Source: Leptonema illini DSM 21528 (GTDB taxonomy: Bacteria; Spirochaetota; Leptospiria; Leptospirales; Leptonemataceae). Taken from it: DNA of 64,000 bases. Below are positions 33,917 to 41,697 of the stretch, piece by piece; positions within the stretch are counted from its first letter, which is position 1, and every line of letters starts with the position of its first letter. The notes below the pieces were generated by a model that was not told the origin of the DNA, did not search any database, and saw nothing but the letters and a program-made list of their open reading frames with translations. The translations under genes and the position numbers were made by a program. Location of the stretch: contig NZ_JH597773.1 of the NCBI RefSeq assembly GCF_000243335.1, forward strand, positions 258,365-322,364, written 5' to 3'.

Positions 33917-34160
33917 GAAGAAGAGTAAACCGCAGAGGGCGCTGAGGACACGGAGGGGGAAGGAGAGAGTTGTTGGGGGCGTTATACGTTCACTATTCTT
34001 CCAGTTGAGTTCCAGTCACCGCTACGGGAGTTTGTGGCTCGATCAAAGAGTTGTTGTCCACGAAAGACGCGAAACTCGAATACAGGGTTTTGCCGCTCCT
34101 TATAAAGCCCTGTATCGTGAACAAAAATACAATATCAGGGTAGCTTCTCGTTAGCCGGGG
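33917..34160. repeat. Repeat copy R1: 3' flank of the Doc gene
   Basis: This stretch is about 85% identical to 34912-35167 by eye over its main 160-nt block. It shares a CGCAGAGGGCGCTGAGGACA core, the GCGTTATAC site (GTTATAC at 33981-33987) and a second 18-nt block at 34143-34160 that contains the doc stop codon. It fills the 263-nt gap between the lipoprotein gene and doc. It looks like a mobile or cassette-associated 3' element rather than coding DNA. Confidence 0.85.
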
Positions 34161-34549
34161 TTTTCTCTCGCATGTTCAGTAAGCCAGTTCGTCAGTTCTG
34201 ATTCGTTGAGTTTTCCGGCCGCCAGTTGCAGCATCCTGGCTACGACATCCTCTTCTGTGGCGTCAAAATCGTATCCATTCAAACCGAGAAATACATACAT
34301 CGCCATGAAAGCAATGCGCTTGTTGCCATCTACGAATGGATGGTTTCGGGCTATTCCATAGCCGTAAGCCGCAGCGAGCTGAAGCAAGTGGACTCTGTCG
34401 TCGTAATTGAGGAGATTCTGCGGACGGAAAAGAGCTGACTCCAGCAATCCTTGATCTCGTATGCCATGGATGCCGCCCGACTGATTGATTTGATCCTTGT
34501 GGATCGCAAGGATCATCCTTTCGGTCAGCCATCTGATCGATCGCTTCAT
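34151..34549 (-). CDS. doc: Fic/Doc-family toxin (death-on-curing type)
   Basis: A 132-residue Doc-type toxin. The Fic motif HPFVDGNKRIAF (about residues 69-80) is complete. GGIHGIRDQGLLESAL near residues 24-39 is typical of Doc proteins, which phosphorylate elongation factor Tu in known cases and so stop translation. The start overlaps the antitoxin stop (ATGA, 34546-34549), as usual for toxin-antitoxin pairs. Its last residues and stop codon lie in repeat R1, which has a counterpart at the end of the unrelated gene at 35158. This suggests the 3' end was acquired with the cassette. Confidence 0.9.
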   Translation of the reverse strand: MKRSIRWLTERMILAIHKDQINQSGGIHGIRDQGLLESALFRPQNLLNYDDRVHLLQLAAAYGYGIARNHPFVDGNKRIAFMAMYVFLGLNGYDFDATEEDVVARMLQLAAGKLNESELTNWLTEHARENPG

Positions 34550-34776
34550 TTCGCAAGTTCTTTAAGAGCGTTACGATATTTTCGCGCTCCTTTTTCGTAC
34601 ACCTGCATCGCCTGGTCGAAATCCGGATCATACGGAGAGAGCAGGATTCCCGAATCCGTCTCGATCAGGTGCACCCGATCTCCAGGCTGAAGGTGCAGGC
34701 GTTCGAGCATGGATTTCGGGATGGTCGCTCCTTGCGAGTTACCGATATTTCGGATTACCGTTTCTTTCACTGCCAT
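34546..34776 (-). CDS. AbrB/MazE-type antitoxin partner of Doc
   Basis: A 76-residue protein with a swapped-hairpin AbrB DNA-binding domain: VIRNIGNSQGATIPKSMLERLHLQPGDRV-type residues (about 6-33). A C-terminal helix (FDQAMQVYEKGARKYRNALKEL) follows and would wrap and neutralise the toxin. The ATG at 34776 is chosen because the domain begins there; the frame extends to 34851 without homology. TATAAC lies directly before the ATG on the minus strand, so transcription may start very close to the start codon. Such antitoxins usually repress their own operon. Confidence 0.85.
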   Translation of the reverse strand: MAVKETVIRNIGNSQGATIPKSMLERLHLQPGDRVHLIETDSGILLSPYDPDFDQAMQVYEKGARKYRNALKELAK

Positions 34777-34873
34777 GTTATAACAATCGTAATACTGCGA
34801 CACTCGTCCATCATTTTTTGCGGCGACGGAGGCACTGTGGTCGCCGGACATCCCCTGTTGGATTCCCTCGCTG

Positions 34874-34894
34874 CCAGTTGAGTTCCAGTCACCG
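34874..34894. repeat. Repeat fragment R3
   Basis: A 21-nt stretch identical to 34001-34021 within R1. It sits upstream of the antitoxin and next to the full copy R2. It indicates a third, truncated copy of the same element. Confidence 0.75.
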
Positions 34895-34911
34895 TTATGG
34901 GAGTGGCGGCA

Positions 34912-35167
34912 GGAAGAGGTGAACCGCAGAGGGCGCTGAGGACACGGAGGGAGGAAGGAGAGAGTTGTTGGGGGGCGTTATACGGCGTCAGTATTCTGCC
35001 AGTTGAGTGGACGTCGCTGCTACGGGAGTTTGCGGCTCCATCGAAGAGTTGTTGTCCACGAAAAGCATGAAAGACGCGAAACTCAAAAGCAGAGTCATTC
35101 GGTTTTCCAGAGCCTCATCCTGTGAATGTAGACCCAAAGAATCTGGATGGCTTCTCGTTAGCCGGGG
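34912..35167. repeat. Repeat copy R2: 3' flank of the gene at 35158-36024
   Basis: A direct repeat of R1 in the same orientation, with the same purine-rich core, a GTTATAC site at 34977-34983 and the 18-nt block at 35150-35167 covering the stop codon of the minus-strand gene. Two unrelated genes thus share the same 3' element. Together with R1 it brackets the doc/antitoxin pair. Confidence 0.85.
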
Positions 35168-36024
35168 GAATTCTTTCGTGCTCTTCGCGGAGCTGTTTCT
35201 GCATCGACATCCCCGCTTTTGCCCAAGGAGTTCCGATATGTCTTCCATTCTTCCAGGGTGAAGGAGCAATTTCCAGATTGAATCTGTATCATCGCCGGCG
35301 CAAAGGCCTCCACGCTCTCCATGGCTGCATGCCAGATTCGGTCCGTAAGACCTCTCCTCTCAAGGGAAACAGAGAACCCGGCCGTCGTCGCTCGACATAC
35401 GTCAAACAGCAGACCCGGCTTCTTATCGCTCAGGTCGCCAGGATCTTGTAGAAACCAACCCTCGTAATTGACGGAGGGAACACTTGCCACGTCAACCGGT
35501 TGCCCACCCAGGACATGCCATGCGAGGTGAATTCCTCTTCGAGCGAACTCACCAACCCAGTGAGCCGGAGCTGGCAGTGGCCTCCGGCTCACAACCACAG
35601 TAAACTTCGCTTCGTTTGGCTCTGGCTTCACAAGTTCGACGAATTGGGGAAGCTCCACAACGTGCACGACGCTACATTTAAGCCTGACACTGGGAGGAAT
35701 GTCTATCAGGAAGTCAATCCCTTCTGCCGCTAGCATCGTATCTAATCCGTTAATGCATCCATCAAAAGAGAACTCTTGCCACTCCGAGTCGAAGTAATAT
35801 TCCGTGACTCCTTGCGCCAACAACCTGAATGCACGGTACACCATCTCGGAATTCGCCTCGTAAGTGCCCTTGATGGGATAGCCCAGCTCCACAGTTACCG
35901 CCGTCGGTACGGCATCTGACTCCAGCCCAGGTATCGGTGTCATGCTTATCACGCGGCCGTCCTGAAAATACGAATGCTCCTGGGCCCATCTTTCCAATTG
36001 GTCGTAATGCTCTATCTGCATCAT
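35158..36024 (-). CDS. Hypothetical protein in cassette-like island
   Basis: A 288-residue soluble protein with no recognised family. It contains VTVELGYPIKGTYEANSEMVYRAF and VVSRRPLPAPAHWVGEFARRGIHLAWHVL segments, rich in Trp and aromatic residues. The end (RRARKNSPG) lies in repeat R2, so its original C-terminus may have been shorter or different. GGAGG upstream of the ATG at 36024 is a strong ribosome binding site, and an attC-like core sits only about 20 nt further upstream. This arrangement resembles a promoterless gene cassette. No function can be given. Confidence 0.65.
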   Translation of the reverse strand: MMQIEHYDQLERWAQEHSYFQDGRVISMTPIPGLESDAVPTAVTVELGYPIKGTYEANSEMVYRAFRLLAQGVTEYYFDSEWQEFSFDGCINGLDTMLAAEGIDFLIDIPPSVRLKCSVVHVVELPQFVELVKPEPNEAKFTVVVSRRPLPAPAHWVGEFARRGIHLAWHVLGGQPVDVASVPSVNYEGWFLQDPGDLSDKKPGLLFDVCRATTAGFSVSLERRGLTDRIWHAAMESVEAFAPAMIQIQSGNCSFTLEEWKTYRNSLGKSGDVDAETAPRRARKNSPG

Positions 36025-36044
36025 ACTTTCGCCTCCGACATCGC

Positions 36045-36120
36045 GCCTAACGTCATTGAGCCTACGAAGCAGGGAGCGCCCACGGGATTCAAGCGAAGCG
36101 GGCTGTCTTCGAGTTGTTTG
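36045..36120 (-). other. attC-like recombination site candidate
   Basis: On the minus strand this ends in GTTAGGC (36051-36045), matching the GTTRRRY core. It begins near an AAC core about 75 nt earlier (36113-36118 region, degenerate). Between them are AGCC/GGCT L-box-like pairs (36059-36062 and 36101-36104) flanking a CGCTTCGC-containing centre. Order and length fit an attC site of an integron cassette, but the left core is poor. It lies exactly between two cassette-like genes. Confidence 0.45.
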
Positions 36121-36144
36121 CTGCTCACACCCAGCTCAGACAAA

Positions 36145-36489
36145 TCAGTTTCCGCCTTCGTAGTAATCTACGTTTAGATTGTCTGCAATTTCGTATGCCC
36201 ACTCTCGATTTTCCGAGTCCACGTCAAAGAAACAGAATTCCACGAACTGCGATCCTATGGTAACATAGAACGCCCCATCGTCGCCATTGTCCCATGCCAG
36301 GCTTCCATCATCAAGTTCTACGACACCTGGGTATGCAGAGCGAATTTCACTAACGAAGGTATCTGTCGGGAATTGCATCAGGTGTGGGGAGCTGGCACCG
36401 TTCAATACAGTCCTGCGGATCCTCTCAAGGGAACTATCATTCAGTTCTTTCCCCGGAACGAGATTCCAGAAAACAACTCGGAACGCCAT
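36145..36489 (-). CDS. Small hypothetical protein in cassette-like island
   Basis: A 114-residue protein, acidic and soluble, of unknown family. It opens with MAFRVVFWNLVPGKEL and contains a GVVELDDGSLAWDNGDDGAFYVTIGS beta region followed by a C-terminal helix-strand. Small domains like this are common among integron cassette and polymorphic-toxin immunity proteins, but no specific family is recognised. GAGGAGG lies just before the ATG, a strong independent ribosome binding site. It is flanked by core-like sites at 36045 and 36566. Confidence 0.65.
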   Translation of the reverse strand: MAFRVVFWNLVPGKELNDSSLERIRRTVLNGASSPHLMQFPTDTFVSEIRSAYPGVVELDDGSLAWDNGDDGAFYVTIGSQFVEFCFFDVDSENREWAYEIADNLNVDYYEGGN

Positions 36490-36609
36490 GGCTTTTCCTC
36501 CTCAAAAAAAGCATACGGCAACACGATGCTGCCCGGAACATAGAGAGCACAGCCTCTAATCTGCTGTTAGACGCGCTAAGCCGATTCTTTACAATCTTGC
36601 ATTGAACGC
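36490..36609 (-). other. Intergenic spacer with attC-like core
   Basis: It contains GTCTAAC on the minus strand (36572-36566), a match to the RYYYAAC core, 38 nt after the end of the upstream gene. A partial palindrome (CGGCAACACGATGCTGCCCG) lies close to the next ribosome binding site. The right-hand core is not recognisable. It is possibly a degenerate attC. Confidence 0.35.
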
Positions 36610-37347
36610 TCAAAGAGTACCGCCATCTGGCCAGTTTTTCCAATGCGTATTCGGCGGCAGTGAAGGCTTATAAACTTTTAAGTCTCCACTGACAAGGACT
36701 TCAGCAAGCTGCTGGAACGTTTCAGACACACCTGGCCGGTGACTATCATCCGCCACATCCGGATGATTCCATTCTTCAAGCTGCATGACATGTTCAAGAT
36801 TCAGCGGTATATTGTAGCGACGCTCATCAGGCGTTGCCATAACAAGCTCTCTATAGTTGGCAGCGAGTAACCGGCACAGTTCAAACGTATAGATCTGATT
36901 GGGATCCGTCAAAGATACGTCGGCAACTGCGTAATCTGGACGCGAAGGTACTGGAATTCTATGGCCCCGTATCAAGATATCTCCACCATGATTATTGACA
37001 ACCTCCCAGTCATCTGGTTGCATCCAGTGACCCTCTTCAATCGGAAAAACGAATCGAGTCTCATTGTTCGGATTGGCTTCAATATAATCTCTAAAAGCCG
37101 AATGGCTCACAAATTCGGATTCGCGTTGCCGATTGAACAAATTGCTGCCAAAGGTGGCAATCTGAGTATGAGGGATTCCAGAACGCGGTGAAAAACCAAA
37201 TACTTCTACGACAATTGCCCAATCGCTTGCAGAACGATACAGCGAGAGCCGACTGGCAGCAAGATATACGTATCCATTGTCAAGCATGGGGAATGTGAAA
37301 TTGTCACAGCAGCGATCCAGGACATTCAGAATTTCCTTGCTATTCAT
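36610..37347 (-). CDS. Hypothetical protein, DUF7003-like
   Basis: A 245-residue soluble protein. The start MNSKEILNVLDRCC followed by FPMLDNGYVYLAASRLSLYRS and WAIVVEVFGFSPRSGIPHTQI resembles the DUF7003 family as remembered, a group of unknown function frequent in accessory regions. FVFPIEEGHWM and NLEHVMQLEEWNHPD also look family-like. The ATG at 37347 is preferred over 37380 because the recognisable sequence begins there. The gene is bracketed by core-like sites at 36566 and 37397. It was probably acquired horizontally with its neighbours. Confidence 0.7.
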   Translation of the reverse strand: MNSKEILNVLDRCCDNFTFPMLDNGYVYLAASRLSLYRSASDWAIVVEVFGFSPRSGIPHTQIATFGSNLFNRQRESEFVSHSAFRDYIEANPNNETRFVFPIEEGHWMQPDDWEVVNNHGGDILIRGHRIPVPSRPDYAVADVSLTDPNQIYTFELCRLLAANYRELVMATPDERRYNIPLNLEHVMQLEEWNHPDVADDSHRPGVSETFQQLAEVLVSGDLKVYKPSLPPNTHWKNWPDGGTL

Positions 37348-37381
37348 TGCTGTTGACCTTTGAAACCGCTGTCCTGGCAAT

Positions 37382-37435
37382 CTATGGGCATACTGCGCCT
37401 AACTCCCATAGTATGCCCTCACTCAGCACACTGAG
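37382..37435. other. Nested palindromes with attC-like core
   Basis: GGGCATACT (37386-37394) pairs with AGTATGCCC (37410-37418), and CTATGGG (37382-37388) pairs alternatively with CCCATAG (37405-37411). The loop holds GCCTAAC (37397-37403), GTTAGGC on the coding strand. A further CTCAG/CTGAG hairpin follows at 37422-37435. The two pairings exclude each other, as in a fold switch or a recombination site. Confidence 0.6.
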
Positions 37436-37642
37436 CAGCAGTCATACGCGCAATCCTCCCTTGTTCCAGAAATTCCGTCCATCATTTTTTGCCGCGTCAC
37501 AGGCACTGTAGTTCGATCGCGGGAATGATTCGATTAAAATCAAGGGATACTTGATGCCAGAAGCTCTGCAGGCTTGCCCGGGCCTGCACTGCAAGCGAAG
37601 CCGAGGAGCGGAGCCTTTAGCCGTAAGTTATGCGCCGTTCTG
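37436..37642. other. Non-coding spacer with island repeat and GTTATGC site
   Basis: It contains TCCATCATTTTTTGC followed by CAGGCACTGTAGTTCG, matching in part the sequence upstream of the antitoxin near 34807-34840. It also has a CGAAGCC/GGAGCGGAGCC-rich segment leading to GTTATGC at 37627-37633. No gene is seen. It resembles the 3' part of a cassette after the SH3 lipoprotein gene. Confidence 0.45.
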
Positions 37643-38764
37643 TTACGGGCATGCTTCAGCAACAAAGCCCTCTCCATACAGTCCGCCGATTCTGAGTTTT
37701 TCGTCTGTAAAAGAATACGTGTACGGCTCGTTCATCTCTCGAAGGTAAATCTCATGGTATCGCTCACCATTCATGTTGATTTGTTCAGGGAAGACAAACA
37801 TGGAATTGCCCGTTGTCGGCCTGGCATCCAGCCTGGAGGGCTGAAAGAGAAATGGAAGCTTGCATAGATTGAGAGTACCATCAGGACCGCGCCAGATGTG
37901 CCGGAGATGATCAGGAATACCTGTAACCGGGGCCTGTTTCTGGAATTCCCCTGTATCATCGCCGATCGACAGTTTGATTCGATCGAGACCCGAAGGTCGA
38001 ATTTTGATTCTAATCGGAGGTCCTTCGTAGCACATGAATAACAACCCGTCCATTTCGTATTCACCGTTTTCAAATGAAACGTTTTCGAAGCCCTTAATTT
38101 CGGAGCGGGACAATTGAAAAGACCATTGATCGGAATAGCAAAGAAGCAGTAAGCGCCCTTCGGATAACCAAGCCCCTGAGAGTTGATTCAGAGCGCCGCA
38201 TTCGTGATTTCCTGAAAAGCGCGGAAGAGTGCCGGAAATCAGCTGATCGTAGTATTCCTGTGTCCCGGCAGAGAAGGAGTAAATCCACCCTTCTGGGAAG
38301 CCCGGTGAACGAATACGAAGCCAATTGCCCTTTTTGTCCAATTCCTCGATCCTGATTCCCGCTGGAAGATCCACGAGGGCTGCCTTTGACTTCCACTCAG
38401 GTTGCGCGTACAGGGGAACTCTATCAAGCGTAATCCAGGATGGACGGGCTTTTTGAAAGTAGTCATCTACGGATTTCGCATAGCCGCCAAAAATCCAGCC
38501 CGATTGACGACGGGAATTCTGAATTTGATACCATTTCGCAGATATCCCGTCGATAGTATCCGCCGGACCGATCTGCTGAATGAGAACCTTTTCCCCTTTG
38601 CCGGCCAGTCCGACAACCGCACCAGTCAGACTCGGACGTTCCCGCATGCGGAGCATGGATGCTGTGACGATGAAGGGATTACCGACGGTGTCGTCTTGAA
38701 CAGGCCGCGGACAATCACAAAAAGTCAACGAGAATAGGACCAATAGAGCAACTCTGGCGTACAT
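37643..38764 (-). CDS. Lipoprotein with two SH3-like domains
   Basis: A 373-residue exported protein. The leader MYARVALLVLFSLTFC, or the following DC, gives a relaxed lipobox. Residues about 30-95 form a bacterial SH3 domain (MLRMRERPSLTGAVVGLAGKGEKV, then WYQIQNSRRQSGWIFGGYAK). A second copy follows at about 110-165 (VPLYAQPEWKSKAALVDLPAG, then NWLRIRSPGFPEGWIYSF). The C-terminal half is beta-rich with several Cys and no recognised family. Such SH3 domains usually bind peptidoglycan or peptides, so a periplasmic or surface envelope role is inferred. It is the first gene of the minus-strand island. Confidence 0.8.
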   Translation of the reverse strand: MYARVALLVLFSLTFCDCPRPVQDDTVGNPFIVTASMLRMRERPSLTGAVVGLAGKGEKVLIQQIGPADTIDGISAKWYQIQNSRRQSGWIFGGYAKSVDDYFQKARPSWITLDRVPLYAQPEWKSKAALVDLPAGIRIEELDKKGNWLRIRSPGFPEGWIYSFSAGTQEYYDQLISGTLPRFSGNHECGALNQLSGAWLSEGRLLLLCYSDQWSFQLSRSEIKGFENVSFENGEYEMDGLLFMCYEGPPIRIKIRPSGLDRIKLSIGDDTGEFQKQAPVTGIPDHLRHIWRGPDGTLNLCKLPFLFQPSRLDARPTTGNSMFVFPEQINMNGERYHEIYLREMNEPYTYSFTDEKLRIGGLYGEGFVAEACP

Positions 38765-41587: not shown

Positions 41588-41697
41588 GTTAACCGCGGAG
41601 GGCTCTGAGAGCTCGGAGGAGATCCGGATAGGGGTTGGCGGGAGTACGAAAATTGACTCGCTATAGTTTAAAGCCGGTTGACCACGGAGGGGGGATG
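41588..41697 (+). repeat. Purine-rich CGGAGG-type repeat motifs
   Basis: Two short relatives of the purine-rich core found in R1 and R2 lie here: AACCGCGGAGGGCTCTGAG at about 41589 and GTTGACCACGGAGGGG at about 41678. The second directly provides the ribosome binding site of the next gene. An inverted relative lies near 43116-43135. They mark the start of the second accessory patch. Confidence 0.55.

Follow-up and report, generated by a model that had tools for sequence, protein, structure and literature searches.

The 64,000-nt stretch of Leptonema illini DSM 21528 analysed here (the window, C1:258365-322364, C1 being contig NZ_JH597773.1; coordinates without prefix are window positions) contains a doc toxin-antitoxin pair located between two direct repeats, R1 and R2, and two unrelated genes, doc and the gene of a 288-aa protein, end within these repeats. 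This raises the question of how unrelated genes come to share their 3' ends, and whether the shared element is a module which moves with, or recombines behind, different genes, as the original prediction had proposed.

R1 and R2 are sister copies of one repeat unit

Both genes terminate in a repeat as anticipated, the TAA of doc lying at 34153-34151 within R1 and that of the 288-aa gene at 35160-35158 within R2, and the repeat does encode the last residues of both proteins, i.e. six of Doc and nine of the 288-aa protein (Table 1). With the unit reaching approximately 34171 and 35189, respectively, the repeat-coded C-termini are ARENPG for Doc and RRARKNSPG for the 288-aa protein, each followed by the stop codon. 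Doc matches the full DOC profile TIGR01550 and is accompanied by the cognate TIGR02609 antitoxin. It is not truncated, as profile positions 4-121 of 122 are matched by residue 124 of 132, and a relative in another genome is of about equal length and differs in its last residues. By these alignments, Doc is complete without its repeat-coded residues. The two proteins share C-terminal residues incidentally, through the overlap of their genes with one end of a repeat that is intergenic; since this repeat sits beside stop codons the gene-end overlap is a by-product.

Table 1. Positions of the repeat units, their boxes and the neighbouring genes in the window, and of group II intron starts elsewhere in the genome.
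Feature	Coordinates	Strand	Remarks
R1, one dispersed-repeat unit (A - middle - C - spacer - C' remnant)	33926..34171	+	model positions 2-265 of 286
Box A of R1, three 9-nt repeats	33930..33955	+	exact to pattern
Box C of R1, degenerate	34058..34082	+	3 mismatches; one 9-nt repeat missing
Inverted box C' of R1, start; overlaps last doc codons	34161..34171	-	comparison with other copies
doc toxin gene, Fic/DOC, TIGR01550	34151..34549	-	last 6 codons and stop inside R1
doc-partner antitoxin gene, MazE/AbrB fold	34546..34779	-	TIGR02609 doc_partner
Third fragment, piece of the unit's middle	34871..34904	+	91% to R1 over 34 nt
R2, second unit, sister copy to R1	34920..35189	+	model positions 2-272 of 286
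Box A of R2	34924..34949	+	exact to pattern
Box C of R2	35056..35080	+	1 mismatch
Partial inverted box C' of R2; overlaps last codons of 288-aa gene	35170..35189	-	comparison with other copies
Gene of 288-aa protein, family not assigned	35158..36024	-	last 9 codons and stop inside R2
Lone box A, elsewhere in window	41593..41618	+	1 mismatch
Group II intron start	L036:7128	-	
Group II intron start	L034:9450	-	
Group II intron start	L206:5348	-	
Group II intron start	L225:2634	-	
Group II intron start	L227:5131	-	
Group II intron start	L030:11538	+	

R1 and R2 show the expected identity of 85% when aligned letters alone are counted (ungapped). With gaps included, the whole unit is 77% identical (E 9e-47), and blocks in register are 82-97% identical. 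The third fragment, originally placed at 34874-34894, is real and slightly longer. R1 and R2 hold as units; their 3' borders at 34160 and 35167 do not, because other family copies continue as CTTTCGCGCTTTTCGTG.., i.e. past these borders an inverted box C' begins before gene sequence takes over, at differing points in R1 and R2.

In a tree of units R1 and R2 are each other's closest copies (support 94/96), so that a local duplication explains the pair around doc; from its sequence, the pair probably represents one such event. As local duplication suffices, the idea of a module moving with, or recombining behind, different genes is unsupported. One could go further and regard R1 and R2 as a decayed intergenic repeat that merely underwent a local segmental duplication, with the doc pair enclosed by chance or by unequal recombination and a family that is immobile today. 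Besides the sister relation and the 85% identity, two further pairs of local sister copies, c3/c5 and d1/d2 (each with 100/100 support), indicate that copies multiply locally, and the 34-nt fragment between R1 and R2 fits a local rearrangement. We nevertheless consider this extended reading rather unlikely, since it leaves unexplained the dispersal of the repeat across the genome, the boxes in other phyla, their A..A' order and the bracketing of GxxExxY genes described below, and a local duplication can hold for R1 and R2 while the family stays mobile.

A second repeat at the locus, 37 nt long and 86% identical between its copies, precedes both the doc antitoxin gene (34805-34841) and a DUF7003 gene (37476-37512); among 235 loci, matches to its exact 17-mer core were limited to those covering this region. 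Three adjacent same-strand genes (35158-37380; 288 aa, 114 aa and DUF7003, 256 aa) have a low coding score for the genome and were possibly acquired together, and no homologue of the 288-aa protein was found on plasmids.

A dispersed, modular repeat family in L. illini

BLAST searches of the L. illini genome detected 19 places with R1 and 26 with R2 as query, and a sequence-only unit model (286 positions), built from nine units, yielded 72 matches. The search for further copies genome-wide was thus successful, and the alternative that only these two copies exist fails. In the best group, at C1:1309362-1311324, five units follow each other nearly in tandem. Each unit is built of modules: box A is followed by a middle part, then by box C and, after a spacer that varies, by an inverted C'. 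Box A is composed of three 9-nt repeats (ACCGCAGAG GGCGCTGAG GACACGGAG), and so is box C (GTCCACGAA AATCACGAA AGACGCGAA). In the R1/R2 unit only C..C' is inverted and A..A' is not; elsewhere in the genome other box orders occur, i.e. A C' C A' as well as A'-A at a recurring step of approximately 72 nt.

The L. illini genome contains 52 exact A boxes compared to none of the reversed pattern. In 463 kb of match-bearing stretches, which give no box density because they were chosen for holding matches, we counted 110 A and 82 C boxes with at most two mismatches, overlapping matches within 9-nt runs being counted more than once, while the reversed control pattern gave none at this level and three at 3 mismatches. 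According to gene calls made in this analysis, 176 of these 192 boxes are intergenic. We regard it as secure that R1 and R2 are members of a modular repeat family which is built of boxes and dispersed over the genome. Nine units folded jointly gave a weak consensus at -7.7 kcal/mol, in which a single pair shows a double change, and we therefore claim no RNA structure for the unit. The 23S-rRNA IVP profile (PF05635), considered as a partner, had no match, and none in the controls either, which makes this negative uninformative.

At C1:569793-569935 (L206), 14 overlapping A-box matches at 9-nt steps form a tandem array of an expanded 9-nt unit. Group II introns, with six copies that fall into two kinds (Rfam RF02005/RF00029; Table 1), begin directly after box-like sequence, four after ..CTCCGTG(C/TC)CTCCG (A') and two after ..GAGGGCTCGG or GAGGCAAGG (A); from these junctions, the boxes look like landing sites of the introns.

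Repeats at the 3' ends of small accessory genes, toxin-antitoxin pairs included, are a feature of integron attC cassettes, and the locus shares it. In a chromosomal integron the shared 3' element would be the attC site behind each cassette gene, in line with all genes from 34151 to 38764 lying on one strand, with a toxin-antitoxin pair and orphan genes as typical cargo and with GGCTAAC at the stop codon resembling the R'' box of attC sites. However, no tyrosine recombinase of the genome exceeds the integron-integrase cut-off, the best one (C1:23442) scoring 99 and 93 bits in two partial alignments at a cut-off of 265, the model also matches in all 14 control genomes, and the unit is repeated elsewhere without cassette genes. 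We rejected the integron array for the absence of an integrase over the cut-off and regard it as very improbable. The best sub-threshold integron-integrase match (L028:8041-9252) is a 403-aa tyrosine recombinase with an extra N-terminal part, encoded near transposase-like genes.

In L. illini, boxes tend to lie behind genes

Within 50 bp of box edges in L. illini we found 25 gene 3' ends versus five 5' ends (p 0.003 in a binomial test that takes the proportion of 3' ends in those spacers as expectation). Spacers with boxes are more often convergent than those without (16/61 versus 22/157, p 0.046) and less often divergent (9/61 versus 41/157, p 0.105). Among 119 listed loci from other phyla, divergent spacers are avoided (12/92 versus 81/264, p 0.0009) and the 3'-end bias is weak (49 versus 29 within 50 bp, p 0.14). 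The L. illini boxes thus have a real tendency to follow genes, but no rule ties the element to particular genes.

Among 65 box clusters in L. illini, 22 neighbouring pairs are less than 4 kb apart. Besides ordinary genes they enclose accessory ones, namely one gene each for a Fic protein, an RHH protein and a transposase as well as group II intron reverse transcriptases, and a HepT-like gene starts just outside one pair. At C1:4190397-4192202 (L235), a small RHH-protein gene lies between two C..C' pairs 1.5 kb apart, resembling the doc pair. The coding score of genes beside boxes gave no clear sign of foreignness (p 0.08).

Box A occurs in many phyla and at a variable site in Bacteroides

An exact scan of GTDB contigs revealed box A in at least 119 contig stretches from many phyla, the matches listed including Acidobacteria, Planctomycetes, cyanobacteria, Chloroflexi, Gemmatimonadetes, Proteobacteria, Bacteroides, Streptomyces and others. 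In these 119 listed loci, 47 of 67 adjacent box pairs are arranged A..A', i.e. pointing inward, versus five A'..A (p 1e-9 among inverted pairs), with A..A' gaps mostly below 170 bp. Box C is almost lacking there (one match at 2 mismatches, equal to the control). Four A..A' gaps below 700 bp contain an ORF of more than 110 aa, and three of these four encode a GxxExxY protein; by tblastn, GxxExxY is found in 3/119 listed loci, all three organised as A-gene-A'.

In some Bacteroides species an A-GxxExxY-A' element of approximately 450 bp abuts the stop codon of a gene which we take to be radA from its translated flank. A survey of this site matched 55/60 genomes, of which 30 loci are listed. In seven of them (L296, L298, L302, L305, L317, L323, L324) a box end lies at most about 5 nt from the radA stop codon, six of the seven having 473-515 bp to the next gene. 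Five listed loci (L299, L301, L303, L304, L322) have an empty spacer of 24-50 bp, and three (L300, L318, L320) a spacer of 68-98 bp with an apparent box-end remnant; the remaining ones show other spacers or other neighbours. The site has undergone gain or loss, with spacers too divergent to say which or how cleanly, and filled and empty sites differ too much for a target-site duplication to be read.

The preference for 3' ends, the avoidance of divergent spacers and the potential of inverted pairs behind stop codons to serve as terminators could also mean that the boxes are host sites, e.g. operators, nucleoid sites or terminator-like sites for GxxExxY or another protein, which are selected behind genes, with the bracketing reflecting self-regulation of the nuclease. 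The patchy distribution makes this unlikely: the exact box occurs in 6/296 Spirochaetota, the 52 copies in L. illini compare to 0-2 in 21 relatives, and the radA site is empty in some Bacteroides. Moreover, Rfam gave no match at gathering score in the window, and the matches near the repeats are at chance level.

Boxes flank genes of GxxExxY, a predicted nuclease family

L. illini encodes two GxxExxY proteins (TIGR04256/PF13366, PDDEXK_3; 130.8 and 136.4 bits at a cut-off of 35). One gene (L046) has A on one side and an imperfect A' on the other (score 13.5), with more A and C boxes adjoining; the other (L045) has no flanking pair (score 9.0) and C boxes on one side only. GxxExxY genes were present in 45/50 genomes chosen for box A compared to none over the cut-off in 14 control genomes. 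Among 296 Spirochaetota, unselected for box A, six have the exact box and 62 a GxxExxY gene over the cut-off, with four having both (p 0.019); this overlap implies that most GxxExxY genomes are without exact box A and that two box genomes are without GxxExxY over the cut-off.

For the 60 GxxExxY loci listed, which are mostly best matches, strict inward brackets by A or C occur in 20 (17 A, 3 C), i.e. in 14/30 loci from box-A genomes and 6/30 from Spirochaetota. The other 40 are not strictly bracketed by A or C, which counts against the model given below. Of the boxes flanking GxxExxY loci, 51/59 point inward. Flanks were compared for 50 loci, comprising 48 of the 60 (12 with a flank clipped by a contig end being omitted) and the two L. 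illini loci: in 40/50 the inverted repeats, mostly 9-nt periodic, exceed the 99% level of shuffled flanks, and only 25/50 pass the null of mispaired flanks (99% level 20.5). Many flank repeats are 9-nt periodic dialects (CACAGAG, CACGAAG, CACAAAG, CACAGAT), while those of three loci (L263, L256, L264) are of another kind or direction. Box A forming the ends of GxxExxY elements is well supported, and for box C this is supported by three loci.

In all 63 GxxExxY proteins compared, E40, D80, E90-x-K92, Q104 and Y108 are invariant (E-D-ExK-QxxxY), a pattern which we take to be that of RecB-like PD-(D/E)XK nucleases. GxxExxY is probably a DNA-cutting enzyme, i.e. a predicted PD-(D/E)XK nuclease. 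A sequence search found no relative among solved structures, and the PADLOC defence-system models gave weak matches only for GxxExxY and the window genes. In the literature, searches by name returned passing mentions of GxxExxY only; for six literal box sequences, and for PDDEXK_3 in connection with repeats, these searches found nothing.

A proposed model for the spread of the boxes and comparison with known systems

We favour, with moderate confidence, a model according to which R1 and R2 are copies of a non-autonomous box repeat and GxxExxY elements spread by the nuclease acting on their box ends. Gene-less short box pairs and mosaics such as R1 and R2 would be copied in trans, as proposed for REPINs and their RAYT. 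Insertions that survive would be those in spacers, mostly just behind stop codons, where the repeat may sometimes supply the last codons and the stop of its neighbour, as for doc and the 288-aa gene; at this locus, the model would account for the identical terminal residues of unrelated genes. The data show the dispersal, the arrangement of the boxes, their occurrence across phyla, the bracketing of GxxExxY and presence or absence at one orthologous Bacteroides site; what we infer is movement of the boxes, GxxExxY as their mover and descent of R1 and R2 from a GxxExxY element, the role of the nuclease as mover being suggested by analogy to REPINs and RAYTs. Several observations count against the model. 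R1 and R2 are linked to GxxExxY via shared boxes with no intact R1-type element, and neither a transposition event nor an excision product or target-site duplication was seen. To these are added the small overlap of exact box A and GxxExxY in Spirochaetota, the GxxExxY loci lacking strict brackets or failing the mispaired-flank null, the L. illini gene L045 with no flanking pair and the weak 3'-end bias outside L. illini. More tentatively, there might exist pan-bacterial mobile elements of approximately 450 bp, with ends made of three 9-nt repeats and a RecB-like PD-(D/E)XK nuclease of the GxxExxY family as sole gene, accompanied by a large cloud of gene-less box repeats. These would insert behind stop codons, in some cases enclose accessory genes, toxin-antitoxin pairs among them, and provide group II introns with landing sites. 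If GxxExxY is the mover, a protein family so far named after a motif would gain a function and a repeat vocabulary spread over many phyla would be explained. Both L. illini proteins and the bracketed genes are members of this family, the name of which is silent on box ends or mobility.

Enterobacterial RU-1, RU-2 and RU-3, as described in the relevant passages of PMC2759123, are MITE-like mobile repeats which, like R1 and R2, provide unrelated genes with a stop codon and their proteins with the C-terminal residues. They differ in their hosts and in the repeat itself, and these passages do not mention a nuclease gene of the element. The boxes are composed of three 9-nt direct repeats, whereas REPIN repeats are GTAG-type palindromes. 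In the parts of PMC3116915 and PMC2817692 that bear on this comparison, REPINs and BIMEs are described as short intergenic repeats forming inverted doublets and mosaics in many copies and also flanking a protein gene. The family described here shares the many intergenic copies and the inverted doublets with a short spacer, R1 and R2 having C..C' only. The gene flanked here encodes the PD-(D/E)XK protein GxxExxY and is often multicopy per genome in box-A genomes, whereas theirs encodes the Y1/HUH transposase RAYT, which the same parts describe as single copy. In our reading, R1 and R2 derive from GxxExxY elements as non-autonomous mosaics and can be compared to REPINs and BIMEs, with a nuclease replacing the RAYT; if GxxExxY is the mover, tiny repeats would spread by a nuclease-driven route beside the transposase-driven one of REPINs.
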